Assembly (NCBI GenBank): GCA_947482115.1
Contig: CANKII010000002.1
Span: forward strand, 1 to 64,000
DNA from: Fibrobacterota bacterium
Lineage (GTDB): Bacteria > Fibrobacterota > Fibrobacteria > UBA11236
DNA length: 64,000 nucleotides
Direction of reading: 5' to 3'
Position 1 is the stretch's first letter. Each line of letters starts with the position of its first letter. The notes under the pieces are model-generated. The model ran no database searches. It saw only the letters and a program-made list of their open reading frames with translations, and was not told the origin of the DNA. A program made the translations under genes and the position numbers. Shown here one piece after another: positions 12,217 through 43,550 of this stretch.

Positions 12217-12255
12217 CCCCGGTAGGGGCGCGATTCAATCATGCCCCAACCGGGG
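12217..12255. repeat. Palindromic repeat of the GTAGGGGCG family in the rpsT 3' region
   Basis: A 39-base inverted repeat: 7-bp outer arms CCCCGGT/ACCGGGG, and inner arms of 11 bp around a single central C (GGGGCGCGATT and AATCATGCCCC) with two mismatches. The GGTAGGGGCG core matches other copies at 13660, 18461 and 41697. Confidence 0.7.
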
Positions 12256-13477: not shown

Positions 13478-14465
13478 CCTCCGGCGTTTTGTCCCGTGGC
13501 TGGCATTTTTCGTGGTACTCGCCCTCGCATTATTTCTTCACCGCTGTTCCTCCAAACCCGCTTCCATTCCCGAACCGCCGAAATTGATTCAACCGGTTAT
13601 GAATCATTCACAACCCGAAACAACGATTGCGAAACGATTGGATACGTCCATTGTTGTTCGTAGGGGCGTCCGGCGGGACGCCCTTGTTGTTGCCCCTACA
13701 GGAAACGTTGTTGCAAATGGTCCGGACTCCATGCCCTATGTCTATGCCGATCCTTGGGGTGGGCGTCATTTTGATTCGATCACCGTGTCCTTGCATTGCC
13801 GTGAGGATTGCGTCATCCTTTACTCGTTTACGGACAGCGTGAATCTGCGCAGCTACAATGCTCCGTTGACCATTCGGCACAACACGACCTTGTGGTTCGC
13901 GGGTTTGTCAGCGCATGGAAATCGCATGCAGACCACCCGGTTGGAATATGTCATTGAGAAGAATCCCCGGAATTGTTCCGCCGGTTCGATGCCGGTGCAA
14001 GTGCAGGGCCATGCGGTGTGCGTGGATGTGTATGAATGGCCGAATCGCGAGAATGCGCAGCCGCAGGCTATGATGAATCATGATCAGGCGGAGGATTCCT
14101 GCCGCTCAGCGGGCAAACATTTGTGTTCCGAGGACGAATGGCAGGCAGCCTGTCACGGGCCCGAACAATCGCGTTATCCCTACGGCCAAAGTTATGACGA
14201 GCGCTATTGTCCGGCTCAACAGTCCGCACCTTCGCGATCAGGAAGATTCCCCGCCTGCCGTTCCTACTACGGGTTATACGATCTCACGGGAAATATGTGG
14301 GAATGGACCTCAACACCGAATCCGCAACACAGCGATTTTTATTTCGTGGCGGGCGGTGGATGGGATGCGGCGGACAATGCCACGTGCGGCATGGCGAAGT
14401 ACAGTTTCTATCCGCAGAACCGGTATCCCACGGTGGGAGCCCGATGCTGTGTGGAGGCGAAGTAG
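13464..14465 (+). CDS. Membrane-anchored protein with chitobiase-C-like and SUMF1/FGE-like domains
   Basis: About 333 residues. It has an N-terminal signal anchor (RFVPWLAFFVVLALALFLHRC), then a linker containing a palindromic repeat. A beta-domain around residues 95-165 (SITVSLHCREDCVILYSFTDS to APLTIRHNTTLWFAGL) resembles the CHB_HEX_C_1 fold. A C-terminal formylglycine-generating-enzyme-like domain follows (CRSAGKHLCSEDEWQAACHG, YGLYDLTGNMWEWT, VAGGGWDAADNATC, PTVGARCCVEAK). Such SUMF1-like domains in lipoproteins are usually non-catalytic. The start is uncertain: GTG at 13464 overlaps argD by 14 bases, and a TTG lies at 13449. It may be translationally coupled to argD; no functional link is evident. 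Confidence 0.7.
   Translation: MRLHSLRRFVPWLAFFVVLALALFLHRCSSKPASIPEPPKLIQPVMNHSQPETTIAKRLDTSIVVRRGVRRDALVVAPTGNVVANGPDSMPYVYADPWGGRHFDSITVSLHCREDCVILYSFTDSVNLRSYNAPLTIRHNTTLWFAGLSAHGNRMQTTRLEYVIEKNPRNCSAGSMPVQVQGHAVCVDVYEWPNRENAQPQAMMNHDQAEDSCRSAGKHLCSEDEWQAACHGPEQSRYPYGQSYDERYCPAQQSAPSRSGRFPACRSYYGLYDLTGNMWEWTSTPNPQHSDFYFVAGGGWDAADNATCGMAKYSFYPQNRYPTVGARCCVEAK
13660..13699. repeat. Palindromic repeat copy inside the SUMF1-like gene
   Basis: It reads GTAGGGGCGTCC...GGACGCCC, then a 3' GCCCCTAC arm. The outer arms GTAGGGGC/GCCCCTAC are perfect, and the inner arms GGGCGTCC/GGACGCCC form a second, alternative hairpin. It is translated in frame within a linker (approximately RRGVRRDALVVAPT). 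Confidence 0.85.
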
Positions 14466-17373: not shown

Positions 17374-17406
17374 AAAAAGCCACGGGATTTTTCCCGTGGC
17401 TTTTTT
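17374..17406. terminator. Bidirectional terminator between the barrel gene and the TonB-system operon
   Basis: A perfect stem AGCCACGGGA/TCCCGTGGCT with a TTTT loop is flanked by A5 and T6. It ends the plus-strand gene at 17356 and the minus-strand operon finishing at 17417. Confidence 0.93.
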
Positions 17407-17416
17407 GTTTCCAAAT

Positions 17417-18547
17417 TTATTTCCGCGAATTTTTATGGCCGTTTGAAAGTTCCCGATACTGCGCCGCTTCATCCTTCAAATCCGCATCCTTGGGTTGCAG
17501 AGTCAATCCACGTTCCAGAATCGCCGCGGCATCCTCATCGCGACTCTGCCGATGGAATTCGCTGGCGATGTTGCGCAGCCCTTCAATGCCTTCACGGTTT
17601 CCGTGTTGAAGAGCCTGACGGTAACTTTCTTCGCTGCGATCCCACCACTTCGAGTCGAAAGCAAGATTTCCCAGAAACACCGCCGCGTCGGAGAAATCCG
17701 GTTTAATGGACAGGGCTTTCTGAAGATAATCCATGGCTAGAAACGGTTTGCCATCCTGTGCCAGCACGTCGGCGAGTTTATAGAGGGCGTCGGCGTCATT
17801 TTCCCTGAGGGTTAATCCTTCGCGATATGCGGCGGCGGCATCCGCAAGCCGTCCCTGTGCCCGCTGTAAATCTCCGATGTAAAACAGAAAATCGACCTCG
17901 GAAGGCTTTCGTGAAAAAGCTTCCCTCACGAGGGTAATGGCCGGATCGTATTCCTTGAGAGCCGCGTGAATTTCGGCTTCCTGATACACAAGGCTGATAT
18001 CGTCGGGATCGAGACGCCGCGCCGCTTCCAAAGCCTGCAAGGCTCCCACATAATCCCGGACACGTATATAGGCATCAGCCAGATACAACCACGCGCTCAA
18101 ATTTTCCGGATCGGCTGCCAGCACTCTGCGATACGCGGCGATGGCTTCCCCGTATTGTTCCAGTCGAAAGAGCACGGCGGCGAGATTGATCTGCGCGGCC
18201 TGCAACTTTCCGTCGCTGAGCCGCACGGCCTTGTGGAACATCGCCGCCGCCGGAGCCAGCCGGTTCAGATGGAAAAGACAATTGCCTTTGTTAAAAGCCA
18301 CGGTGGCGGGATCCGCACCACGGCTTTCCGCCCGCTGGTATAGCAACAGGGCTTTGGCGAACTGGCCGCGGTTGTAAAGATCATTTCCGCGTTGCACCAG
18401 ATTGGATGCGGTGATGGATACAGGTATAGAAACCGAATCATTCGTTATTGTGTCGTTCCCGTAGGGGCGTCCTGCGGGACGCCCTGACAATGTGGCTACA
18501 ATGGAAGCCATTATCCAAAATCGCATTTTGAAATTCATATCATGCAT
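17417..18547 (-). CDS. Tetratricopeptide-repeat protein, last gene of the TonB-system operon
   Basis: A 376-residue exported protein. The ATG at 18547 overlaps the stop of the tonB-like gene. A hydrophobic leader (MRFWIMASIVATL) is followed directly by GRPAGRPYGN, the translation of a palindromic repeat. The rest is about eight TPR units, for example ALLLYQRAESRGADPATVAFNKGNCL, AIAAYRRVLAADPENLSAWLYLADAYI and AMDYLQKALSIKPDFSDAAVFLGNLAF. A TPR gene closes the Vibrio TonB2/TtpC clusters in the same way. Such a protein probably assists the energy-transducing complex at the periplasmic side; its partner is not known. Confidence 0.85.
   Translation of the reverse strand: MHDMNFKMRFWIMASIVATLSGRPAGRPYGNDTITNDSVSIPVSITASNLVQRGNDLYNRGQFAKALLLYQRAESRGADPATVAFNKGNCLFHLNRLAPAAAMFHKAVRLSDGKLQAAQINLAAVLFRLEQYGEAIAAYRRVLAADPENLSAWLYLADAYIRVRDYVGALQALEAARRLDPDDISLVYQEAEIHAALKEYDPAITLVREAFSRKPSEVDFLFYIGDLQRAQGRLADAAAAYREGLTLRENDADALYKLADVLAQDGKPFLAMDYLQKALSIKPDFSDAAVFLGNLAFDSKWWDRSEESYRQALQHGNREGIEGLRNIASEFHRQSRDEDAAAILERGLTLQPKDADLKDEAAQYRELSNGHKNSRK
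18461..18488. repeat. Palindromic repeat copy in the TPR gene
   Basis: A short copy with GTAGGGGCGTCC and GGACGCCCTGAC arms around TGCG. On the coding strand it is read in frame as GRPAGRPYG directly after the signal peptide. It shares GTAGGGGCGTCC exactly with the copy at 13660. Confidence 0.85.
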
Positions 18548-31073: not shown

Positions 31074-31105
31074 AAAAAAAGCCGGTGGTTTCCCACCGGC
31101 TTTTT
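31074..31105. terminator. Terminator of modular-protein gene three
   Basis: A perfect stem GCCGGTGG/CCACCGGC with loop TTTC, flanked by A7 on the left and T5 on the right. It terminates the minus-strand gene ending at 31128. Confidence 0.93.
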
Positions 31106-39962: not shown

Positions 39963-42900
39963 ATGTATCTCTCAAAACTTCGCATACTCGGCTTCAAATC
40001 CTTCGCCAATCGCGTTGAGGTCAATTTTCCCGGAGAAGGGATCACCTCGGTGGTGGGACCCAACGGTTGCGGCAAGTCCAACATCATCGACGCCATTCGT
40101 TGGGTGCTGGGCGAACAGCGCGCACGCGCGCTGCGTTCGAGCAAAATGGAGGATGTGATTTTTTCCGGCACGGCGGATCGTCCCGCCATGGGCATGGCCG
40201 AAGTCAGTCTTCTGATCAATAACGACAGCGGAGTTCTCCCGTCAGATTATACGCAGGTGATGATCACACGCCGCACCTACCGCAACGGCGAAAGCGAATA
40301 CTTGATCAACAACCAGCCCTGCCGCCTCAAGGACATTCACAACCTCTTCTACGACACCGGCATGGGCGCGGCCTCCTACAGTCTCATCGAAGCGAAGATG
40401 ATCGACAGCATTCTTTCGGACAAGGCCGAGGAACGGCGCGTGATGTTCGAGGAAGCTGCGGGCATTTCCAAATACAAGCAGCAGCGCAAGGAAACGTTGC
40501 GTCAACTGGATCGGACCGCGCAGGATTTGACACGGGTGGAGGACAGTCTCCGCCATGTGCAGCAGAATGTCAACATGTTCGAACGTCAGGCCAAGAAGGC
40601 CGAGAAGTGGCGTGAGATTCATTCCGCCCATCGTTCGCTGGAATTGAGTTACCAGTATGACTCCTATGTTCAATTTGCGGAAGAGCTGGAGTTGCTGCAA
40701 TTGGCGAAGGCCAAGGATGAAAATCAGCAGGCTTTGTTGGATGCCCGTCGCGCCACAGAGGAAGCTTCCTTAGAAGAGGAAAAGCTGGGGTTGGTGGATG
40801 AAGAACGTCAGTTGATGGCATTGAGCCAGAAGGCTGCTGGAACACAGGCCGAGTCCATTCGGCTTGAGACGGAAGCCCTGCGCAACAAGGATCGCGTGGA
40901 GCATCTGGAAGAATCGTTGCAACGTTTGCAAACTGAGGCGGCAGAGTCGCGAACGCGGTTGGTGGACATGGAACGTCAACGTGTGGAGGCATTGCAAGAG
41001 GCCGAAAAGCTGGAGAGTTTTCTAGGCGGAGCGTCTGACAAGTCATTGGAAGCCCGCACGAGAGTGGATGCCGCTTCCGCGCGGGTCCGGGAAGCCCGCC
41101 TTGAAGTGGACGCCTTGAATGAAGAACGCATGAACGCCTTGCAGGAAATGTCGGGATTGAAACAGCGTTTAAGCGCGGTGGAAGCTGAACTTCAGCATTT
41201 GCAGGACAATGAGGAAGAATGGAGCGGCGAGCGCGAGTCGCGCGAGGAACGTTTGCAGGAAACACGGCGTGAACGCGAAACGGTGGCGCTCTCCCTGGTC
41301 GAAGCGGAGAATGAAACGCAGGCCGCAACTCTCAGTTTGGAATTGGCTGTGAGAGCGGCGGACGAAGCCGGTCGTGCGCTCGAACGCGAACAATTGCGCG
41401 AGCAGGAACTGCAGCGCAACAAGGTGGCTCTGGACACGCAGAGGACTTTGCTTCTGGGGCTTGAGGCCGGTGGCGAAGGCATGGATGCCGGGGTGAAATA
41501 TTTGCTGAGTGAAGCGAAGGATCGACTGCAATCCCTGTTGATCGACGTGCTTCAGGTTCCTGCGGAATTTCTGGTATCGGTGGAGCGTGCCTTGGGAAAA
41601 TCCCTGCAAGTGGTGCTGGTCCACGATAAACAGCGCGGTGTGGAATTGCTGAATGCCTTGAAGCAGACAAAAAAGGGTGATGCGGTTTTTGGTTTTCCCG
41701 TTGATGGTAGGGGCGACTCGCAAGTCGCCCCTACCATCAACGGGCGGGAACGTCCGAATCTTTCGGGACAATCCGGTTTTCGCGGCTGGTTGATCGATCA
41801 AATCAAATACCCCGCCGAGTGGAAGGGAATTCTGGAATGGTCTCTGGGTCATCACGCTTTGGTGGATTCCTTGGACAGTGCGTTCGCTTTGGCTCCCGCT
41901 TTGGGTGAGAAGGATATCTGGCTTTGGACGCCGGATGGATCGGCGTTGCATTCTGGCGGCATTTTATACGGCGGTTCCCCGGTGTCGGATCAAACCGGAT
42001 TGCTTCAGCGCAAAGCCCAGCTTGCCGATGTTCAGGTGCGTTTGGGGGGGCTTGAAAAGGAATTACAATCCGCCGCAACCCAAATCAAATCGCTGGAAGA
42101 ACAGAAGACGGGATTGCTTCGCGAGATCGAATCCCAGCGCACACGCGGTCGTGATGCGGAGCGGAAGGTGCATGAATTGCGGGCGCGAACGCAGCTCACG
42201 GAGAGTCAGGCGGAGACTCTGGACAGGGAAGTGGTTCAATACCGTCTCAAGCTGGAATCCACCGGCGGCCGCAAATCGGATTTGCTGCGTGAAATCGAAA
42301 CGCTGCGATCCACATGGAATCAGGCCGAAGAGGAACGCCGCACTTTGGAAAACCGGTTTCAGGCCATGCAGGAAAAACTCCAGTCGCAAAACCTGGAGCT
42401 GGTCGAACTGGAAAACGCCTGGCGTCAACTGGAGCAGGAACGGACCGAGTCCGAAGCGCGTGTGCAAACTGCGAAAGCCAAGGCGGAATATTTGCAGCGT
42501 GGAGAGTCCGAAGTCCAGGCTGCGCTGGAAAAATCCGGACTTCAGCGCGAAGACTGGGAATCGCAAATCAAACTTCTCCGCGAAAAAAATCTTTCATTGG
42601 CCGGAGAAATCGATTTGGTCCATGTCCGCCTCTCGGGCGACGAAAAAGAACGCGATGCGGTGAAGTCGGCGTATGATGCCAAGTCGGGACACCTCGAGGA
42701 GCGCAGGATTACACTGCGCCGTTTGCAGGACGAGTTGCGCGGGCTTACCGAGGAGGTGCATCGCCGTTCCCTGAAGATGGAACAACTGCGATCCACCGCC
42801 CTGTCCATTCAACAGCGCATGTTCGAAAGACATGAAGTGGATTTCAATGTCTCCGAAGTCGTTTTCGATCGGGTCGAATACGATTCCGAAACCGCACCGG

Positions 42901-43550
42901 ATCAAATCGCGGAGTTGCACGAGAAATTGAAGTCCCTCGGCAACATCAATGCGGGCGCCTTGGAGGATTACGAGGCCGAAAAGGCGCGTCTCGATGAAGT
43001 GCGCAGGCAATTCGACGATCTTGAAAAGGCGCGGAAGGGATTGGATCAGGCCATCAAGAAACTCGACAAGGCCGCGCGCGAGCAGTTTCAAGCGACCTTC
43101 GCCACCGTGCAAAAGAATTTTCAGGAGGTGTTCTCCTCGTTGTTTGAAGGCGGTGAGGCCCAACTCTCCCTTGAAGAGGGCATTGATCCGCTGGATTCCA
43201 AAATCGAAATCAACGCCCGCCCCACCGGCAAAAAGATGCGCGGTGTTTCATTGCTCTCGGGCGGTGAACGCGCCTTGACCGCCATTTCACTTTTGTTTGC
43301 GTTGTATCTCGTGCGTCCTTCGCCCTATTGCATCATGGACGAAGTGGACGGCCCCTTGGACGACGCCAATATCGGCCGCTTCGTCAATCTGCTGCGCCGT
43401 TTCAGCCATCAGACACAGTTTATCGTGGTGACGCATAACAAACGCACCATGGCCGCTTCCGACATGCTTTACGGAGTAACGCAGGAAGTGAAGGGTGTGT
43501 CGAAACTTGTGGCCGTGCAACTGGACGAGGCCGCACGCATTGCAGCCTGA
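39963..43550 (+). CDS. smc: Chromosome segregation ATPase SMC
   Basis: A 1195-residue protein, the usual SMC length. The N-terminal Walker A is VGPNGCGKSN (residues ~31-40), with LGEQRARALRSSKMEDVIFSGT close by. Long coiled coils surround the hinge (~510-680: AEFLVSVERALGKSLQVVLV to GGILYGGSPV). The C-terminal signature is LLSGGERALTAISLLFA and Walker B is YCIMDEVDGPLDDANIGRF. SMC with ScpAB organises and segregates the chromosome; scpA and scpB are not in this window. Oddly, the hinge contains 16 codons derived from a perfect palindromic repeat at 41697-41744, which keeps the reading frame. The Walker B motif has DGP where most SMCs have DAP. Confidence 0.97.
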   Translation: MYLSKLRILGFKSFANRVEVNFPGEGITSVVGPNGCGKSNIIDAIRWVLGEQRARALRSSKMEDVIFSGTADRPAMGMAEVSLLINNDSGVLPSDYTQVMITRRTYRNGESEYLINNQPCRLKDIHNLFYDTGMGAASYSLIEAKMIDSILSDKAEERRVMFEEAAGISKYKQQRKETLRQLDRTAQDLTRVEDSLRHVQQNVNMFERQAKKAEKWREIHSAHRSLELSYQYDSYVQFAEELELLQLAKAKDENQQALLDARRATEEASLEEEKLGLVDEERQLMALSQKAAGTQAESIRLETEALRNKDRVEHLEESLQRLQTEAAESRTRLVDMERQRVEALQEAEKLESFLGGASDKSLEARTRVDAASARVREARLEVDALNEERMNALQEMSGLKQRLSAVEAELQHLQDNEEEWSGERESREERLQETRRERETVALSLVEAENETQAATLSLELAVRAADEAGRALEREQLREQELQRNKVALDTQRTLLLGLEAGGEGMDAGVKYLLSEAKDRLQSLLIDVLQVPAEFLVSVERALGKSLQVVLVHDKQRGVELLNALKQTKKGDAVFGFPVDGRGDSQVAPTINGRERPNLSGQSGFRGWLIDQIKYPAEWKGILEWSLGHHALVDSLDSAFALAPALGEKDIWLWTPDGSALHSGGILYGGSPVSDQTGLLQRKAQLADVQVRLGGLEKELQSAATQIKSLEEQKTGLLREIESQRTRGRDAERKVHELRARTQLTESQAETLDREVVQYRLKLESTGGRKSDLLREIETLRSTWNQAEEERRTLENRFQAMQEKLQSQNLELVELENAWRQLEQERTESEARVQTAKAKAEYLQRGESEVQAALEKSGLQREDWESQIKLLREKNLSLAGEIDLVHVRLSGDEKERDAVKSAYDAKSGHLEERRITLRRLQDELRGLTEEVHRRSLKMEQLRSTALSIQQRMFERHEVDFNVSEVVFDRVEYDSETAPDQIAELHEKLKSLGNINAGALEDYEAEKARLDEVRRQFDDLEKARKGLDQAIKKLDKAAREQFQATFATVQKNFQEVFSSLFEGGEAQLSLEEGIDPLDSKIEINARPTGKKMRGVSLLSGGERALTAISLLFALYLVRPSPYCIMDEVDGPLDDANIGRFVNLLRRFSHQTQFIVVTHNKRTMAASDMLYGVTQEVKGVSKLVAVQLDEAARIAA
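41697..41744. repeat. Perfect palindromic repeat inside the SMC hinge
   Basis: A 48-base perfect inverted repeat. Each arm is 22 bp (starting CCCGTTGATGGTAGGGGCGA on the left) and the loop is CGCA. The length is 16 codons, so the frame is intact; it encodes roughly PVDGRGDSQVAPTINGRE. The core GTAGGGGCG is shared with the copies at 12217, 13660 and 18461. Confidence 0.95.

Follow-up and report, generated by a model that had tools for sequence, protein, structure and literature searches.

Described palindromic elements

Intragenic REPs are already known. GTAG REPs (Di Nocera et al. 2013, PMC3733652) are palindromes of 20-40 bp that start from GTAG, some of them inside ORFs, in genomes that also carry RAYT genes. 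They are found downstream of genes or between convergent genes, where TAG acts as the stop codon, and the tag of the superfamily is unpaired and present at one end only. Fibrobacterota are not among the phyla listed for GTAG repeats in that survey (PMC3733652). REPtrons and RAYTs are treated in the available part of Nunvar et al. 2010 (PMC2817692), while REPINs, according to the accessible portion of Bertels and Rainey 2011 (PMC3116915), are RAYT-associated REP doublets made of two inverted REPs and a spacer. Among the Rickettsia palindromic elements (RPEs), RPE-4 and RPE-6 have been placed in a superfamily that bears a CGTC tag and has no dedicated transposase; RPE-1, which is longer, is of a different kind (PMC3733652). 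Perfect inverted repeats also arise outside mobile families: template switching makes and homogenises them, in coding genes as well (available sections of PMC8794818, PMC8604942 and PMC7202029), and Nematomorpha mitochondria carry repeats of up to 284 bp with both arms coding (available section of PMC6649704).

The element analysed here belongs to an uncultured member of the Fibrobacteria (genome G000), which was compared with three relatives of the same genus (G001, G002 and G003). It resembles GTAG REPs as a repeated stem-loop of 20-40 bp (a core of 27-29 nt, 40 full copies) with GTAG at the stem base, located mainly at gene 3' ends with TAG as stop, sometimes intragenic, in a genome possessing RAYT genes (four in this case). 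Unlike in GTAG REPs, the tag is paired with CTAC and hence present at both ends and on both strands, the core is found inside the RAYT ORF, and the dispersed copies, about 40 in number, carry locus-specific inverted flanks. Because the tag is not an unpaired one-end tag, the element may best be regarded as a symmetric variant with GTAG-REP-like behaviour, and not as a proven member of the superfamily. The preliminary description of this DNA had drawn a parallel with RPEs. Both kinds place palindromes in frame in unrelated protein genes (about 11 other genes here), but they share no sequence tag, GTAG with a 28-bp core in our case and CGTC in RPE-4 and RPE-6; RPEs are thus only an analogy, and the GTAG REP/RAYT system is the closest kind. 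The element is, like REPINs, a palindromic RAYT-associated miniature element, but it consists of one symmetric hairpin of 27-29 nt, with no inverted doublet or spacer. The Nematomorpha palindromes, which also have both arms coding, are longer, and the available section of that report mentions no shared mobile core.

The palindrome in the SMC hinge

SMC is an essential chromosome-organising protein, and its gene lies in the 64-kb window, the whole stretch of DNA that was analysed (Table 1). Within it, CCCGTTGATGGTAGGGGCGACT-CGCA-AGTCGCCCCTACCATCAACGGG forms a perfect 48-nt palindrome, whose position, loop CGCA and 22-bp arms, exact reverse complements of each other, were re-found as first described. 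No other perfect inverted repeat in the window is as long, terminator-like hairpins coming next in length, and the predicted fold of the palindrome is very stable (z of -6.35 as DNA and -5.2 as RNA). The smc reading frame runs uninterrupted through it, and the encoded residues fall within the Pfam SMC_hinge match (53.9 bits), in agreement with the initial view of a palindrome in the hinge of an otherwise normal smc gene.

Table 1. Positions of the smc palindrome, its parts and host gene, and of related copies in the 64-kb window
Feature	Position	Strand	Basis or remark
smc gene (1195-aa product), which hosts the insertion	39963..43550	+	ORF; Pfam SMC_N and SMC_hinge; orthologs in 40/40 relatives
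SMC hinge domain; the insertion probably lengthens a surface loop	41535..41891	+	Pfam match, residues 525-643; AlphaFold2 model
Whole 48-nt perfect palindrome, 22-bp arms and loop CGCA	41697..41744	.	SMC residues 579-594
Repeated, putatively mobile core GTAGGGGCG-ACTCGCAAGT-CGCCCCTAC, GTAG-REP-like, encoding GRGDSQVAPT	41707..41734	.	40 full palindromes of the same design in the genome, 38 read with flanks
Left outer arm CCCGTTGATG, unique to the smc locus	41697..41706	.	Outer arms vary between loci
Right outer arm CATCAACGGG, exact inverse of the left outer arm	41735..41744	.	Palindrome and flank comparison
Decayed copy CCCCG-GTAGGGGCGCGATTCAATCATGCCCCAAC-CGGGG with outer arms	12217..12255	+	Inverted-repeat reading of the window
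Decayed copy or other subtype, GTAGGGGCGTCCGGCGGGACGCCC...GCCCCTAC	13660..13699	+	Inverted-repeat reading of the window
Partial copy or other subtype, GTAGGGGCGTCCTGCGGGACGCCC	18461..18484	+	Inverted-repeat reading of the window

An alignment of SMC proteins from close relatives, as the preliminary description had proposed, reveals that the segment is absent from all three same-genus SMCs. It is thus not ordinary hinge sequence carried by every relative, the case that would have spoken against an insertion, and by this alignment the palindrome is a real in-frame insertion. The linker between FGF/FGL and R-x-RP counts 16 residues here and 7, 10 and 7 in the same-genus proteins, with FGF-PVDGRGDSQVAPTING-RERP facing FGF-SGAGSFR-RERP in G002. 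These proteins are shorter at the insertion by 9 codons in two cases and by 6 in the third. The net gain over two of the three relatives is 9 codons and not the 16 first reported. At smc, neither side can be proven to be the ancestral flank, as the same-genus proteins are 68-73% identical and the linker varies in length.

Modelling of the hinge loop, also proposed at the outset, yielded an AlphaFold2 model of 186 residues (25 sequences) with a mean pLDDT of 90.4. Confidence is lowest, 73 and 63, in two 10-residue blocks, model residues 71-90, which correspond to the insertion and its edges and are predicted as coil between two short strands. The model suggests that the insertion lengthens a surface loop, and hinge function is presumably preserved. 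An essential SMC hinge would thus accommodate a net insertion of 9 codons.

A dispersed family of cores

The repeated unit at smc is limited to the inner 28 bp, GTAGGGGCG-N10-CGCCCCTAC, the outer 10-bp arms being specific to this site. The idea that the 48-bp palindrome is mobile is thus right as to the insertion of a repeated palindrome, but only the core recurs. The window contains GTAGGGGCG 5 times (0.26 expected) and the genome 109 times, versus 38 for the reversed control. The core had been said to be common to three other loci of the window; the five occurrences bear out its repetition there, while those three loci are decayed copies or another subtype. Full GTAGGGGCG-N-CGCCCCTAC palindromes number 40 in the own genome, 14 in G002, 21 in G003 (an assembly 87% complete) and 2 in G001, and the reversed control gives 0. 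The counts covered the genomes of the phylum and viral contigs: core palindromes are present in 31 of the 168 genomes. To note, viral contigs harbor them in at least 120 stretches (L185-L304). A text search of papers for GTAGGGGCG or VGAGLKPAPT returned nothing relevant.

The 38 own-genome copies read with their flanks define a core of 27-29 nt, composed of a fixed 9-bp outer box and an inner part of 9-11 nt that varies between copies and is largely self-complementary. GTAG heads the stem in every copy read, which follows by construction from their retrieval with the GTAG motif; one G002 copy has a compensated ATAG/CTAT variant. According to gene calls made with a simple codon-usage script, most copies are located at gene 3' ends, where the TAG of GTAG often terminates the reading frame of one convergent gene or of both. 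At L155/L109, L150 and L112, convergent gene pairs end in the two TAG stops of a single palindrome and share their last codons. Three strong terminator-like hairpins of the window with A/T-rich ends (2138-2177, 17374-17405 and 31076-31105) contain no element.

About 11-12 other copies lie deep inside ORFs, in frame; the count of intragenic copies called for in the preliminary description thus comes to about 11 other genes. Their Pfam-assigned hosts include AroA, DprA, HrpB, GlgE, a FadB-like enzyme, a cytidylyltransferase, a NosL-domain protein and a PEGA-domain protein, and one copy sits in an ORF with the motif MPNHVHG, identifying a RAYT. In AroA, FP-GRGDSRVAPT-GEL replaces the YP-E-GEL of G002, a net gain of 9 codons. 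HrpB displays the same net gain of 9 codons versus G002, but the G002 gene holds an apparent element remnant (GCCCCTAC), making AroA the cleaner case of the two. The net 27 nt gained in both genes rule out a net insertion equal to the core plus one arm. Reading-frame arithmetic applied to the lengths of cores and arms within genes does not separate the models. The G002 cytidylyltransferase gene (L336) carries the palindrome GGACGGCCGTCC without a core where the own genome has ACGGTTT-core-AAACCGT; it is perhaps a relic of core loss.

RAYT genes with a palindrome inside the ORF

A search of the own genome with Pfam Y1_Tnp produced no transposase match, but the conclusion that the genome lacks a transposase is ruled out by a search with a RAYT-like ORF, which retrieved four RAYT genes in the own genome, two in G002 and others in G003, G010, G012 and G014. 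The Pfam model probably missed them because the palindrome within the ORF weakens the match. This palindrome directly follows the HUH motif (MPNHxH) in all four own RAYTs, in both G002 RAYTs and in one full-length G003 RAYT, with one altered form, and the HxH motif is retained, as is the Y of IRxYI. Palindromes with other stems, such as GTAGGGGTTCAAAATTTTGAACCCCTAC, occupy the same place in RAYTs of several other Fibrobacterota families. GTAG-type palindromes within the ORF, with differing stems, are seen in L305, L312, L317 and L320 (own genome) and in L306, L313, L307, L455, L456, L471 and L472. None was found in RAYT relatives of Leptolinea and Spirosoma, of one viral contig, in a G014 gene and in one G085 gene. 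A RAYT-like ORF of G053 (L358, about position 1182, minus strand) exhibits a repeated core-encoded peptide, VGAGSARPV, and three core matches. The literature searched contained no report of a hairpin inside a RAYT ORF.

The core types inside RAYTs and those of dispersed copies match in part. GATTTTAAATC is exact in G002 only, in 3 of 12 dispersed copies, and ACCCGGCGGGT matches dispersed copies in the own genome only, 2 of 36 being exact. For the remaining types the match is weak or absent. A REPtron has repeats flanking its RAYT; here, the 1.5-kb flanks of the four own RAYTs have no full core directly adjoining the gene, one being located ~1.3 kb away and a single arm ~1 kb away. The partial match of core types, together with the known REP/RAYT link, suggests that RAYT moves the core. 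REP mobilisation thereby becomes testable, as the hairpin sits at one conserved position of the RAYT ORF in several Fibrobacterota families and core types match in some genomes.

Outer arms and the making of a perfect palindrome

Beyond the core, all 36 dispersed own-genome copies possess a perfect inverted flank of 3-12 bp. These outer arms differ between loci, save a few alike such as CCCCG, and their mean length across G000, G002 and G003 is 5.2 bp, versus 0.6 with shuffled partners. The three RAYT-internal copies of G000 and G002 in the flank set have outer arms of 0, 1 and 2 bp. In the closest relative nearly all copies have outer arms, while nearly all of 20 copies in G003 have 0-3 bp and one has 5 bp, with the same cores. 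Arms are of 0 or 1 bp in 117 of 129 viral copies and of 6-11 bp in four, and are mixed in other genomes of the phylum.

Several sites are empty in G002, with no palindrome there (L148:3009, L156:15285, L164:16763, L151:4669, L150 and L153), and some allow one arm to be traced, by eye and on diverged sequences. At L148:3009 the left arm corresponds to the homologous CDS end (CCTGCC here, CTTGCC in G002), and G002 has no counterpart of the right arm. At L151:4669 homology lies with the right arm, L164:16763 favors the left, and in AroA one arm is homologous coding sequence. Such one-sided ancestry, the other arm being an inverted copy, is like the outcome of quasipalindrome template switching. 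Those events are known as sporadic ones; here, nearly every dispersed copy in two species bears the signature. Where both species carry the element at a site, with one and the same core type, the symmetric arms are particular to each species (L145/L438, L160/L428 and L167/L117), and at L155/L109 each right arm mirrors the diverged left flank of its own species, some core differences there being too large for simple arm correction. This concerted change of outer arms between species points to copying by template switching. The preliminary description had taken the perfect arms to mean either a recent insertion or a selected hairpin; neither is required, given this concerted change at shared sites.

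The smc palindrome is probably a GTAG-REP-type element, mobilised by RAYT, that entered the hinge loop in frame and whose flanks were made symmetric by template switching. The RAYT single-strand (HUH/Y1) transposases of the own genome would mobilise the core, and 28 nt would have entered the variable hinge loop and been kept because the net change is in frame (+9 codons versus two of three relatives) and affects a surface loop. The flanking 10-bp arms would not belong to the incoming element: during or after insertion, DNA polymerase would switch template at the hairpin and copy one flank, inverted, onto the other side, so that a perfect palindrome of 28 nt would grow to 48 nt, and the same switching would keep the arms identical as they mutate. 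This copying is not automatic, since G003 has the same cores almost without outer arms.

More speculatively, the RAYT gene may host its cognate hairpin in its own ORF as a master copy, with insertions making an inverted duplication of the target flank. To our knowledge, such a duplication has not been described as a target-site signature for any known transposon. An inverted target duplication coupled to the insertion itself, in which RAYT joins the single-stranded hairpin to a broken target strand and synthesis is primed on the flank by the 3' end of the hairpin, leaving 4-12 nt of inverted flank, appears unlikely. It would fit the presence of arms in 36 of 36 dispersed own copies, within the narrow range of 3-12 bp, versus 0-2 bp in RAYT-internal copies, as well as the derivation of arms by inverted copying of one flank where the G002 site is empty. 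However, the 27 nt gained in AroA and HrpB are not the 35-40 of core plus arm, meaning that flank was replaced and not added; furthermore, species that share a site and a core type there have different arms, and most G003 copies have none.

That the element targets the middle of palindromes or terminator hairpins already in place, with arms older than the insertion, is quite improbable. T. roseum GTAG-23 REPs have been reported within small palindromes (PMC3733652), and a coreless GGACGG-CCGTCC is present at the corresponding position of the G002 cytidylyltransferase gene. Nonetheless, the six empty G002 sites hold no palindrome, which together with the template-switch pattern argues against such targets, several arms are AT-rich and weak (ATTTC), and the long stable terminator-like hairpins of the window are unoccupied. 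We give still less credit to a hairpin selected as RNA or DNA (for termination, mRNA stability or protein binding), its arms being kept perfect by compensatory mutations: many copies are indeed found where genes end and provide the TAG stop codon, as REPs generally do, and the RNA fold is very stable, but perfect unique arms also occur deep in unrelated conserved coding regions, where they would hardly serve termination, and in G003 the copies manage without outer arms. Ordinary hinge sequence or an assembly artefact is hardly credible: the linker length varies among relatives, but there are 40 separate copies on many contigs, the segment is found in no relative and the frame is intact.

Two sister species with arms and a third with hardly any offer a natural comparison for the origin and upkeep of long perfect coding palindromes. 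Loss of SbcCD or of exonuclease VII is ruled out as the cause of the arm difference between G000/G002 and G003: SbcD (TIGR00619) was not detected in any of G000-G003, nor in G069 and G085, and exonuclease VII is present in all four genus members. The non-detection of SbcD may help long palindromes to persist.
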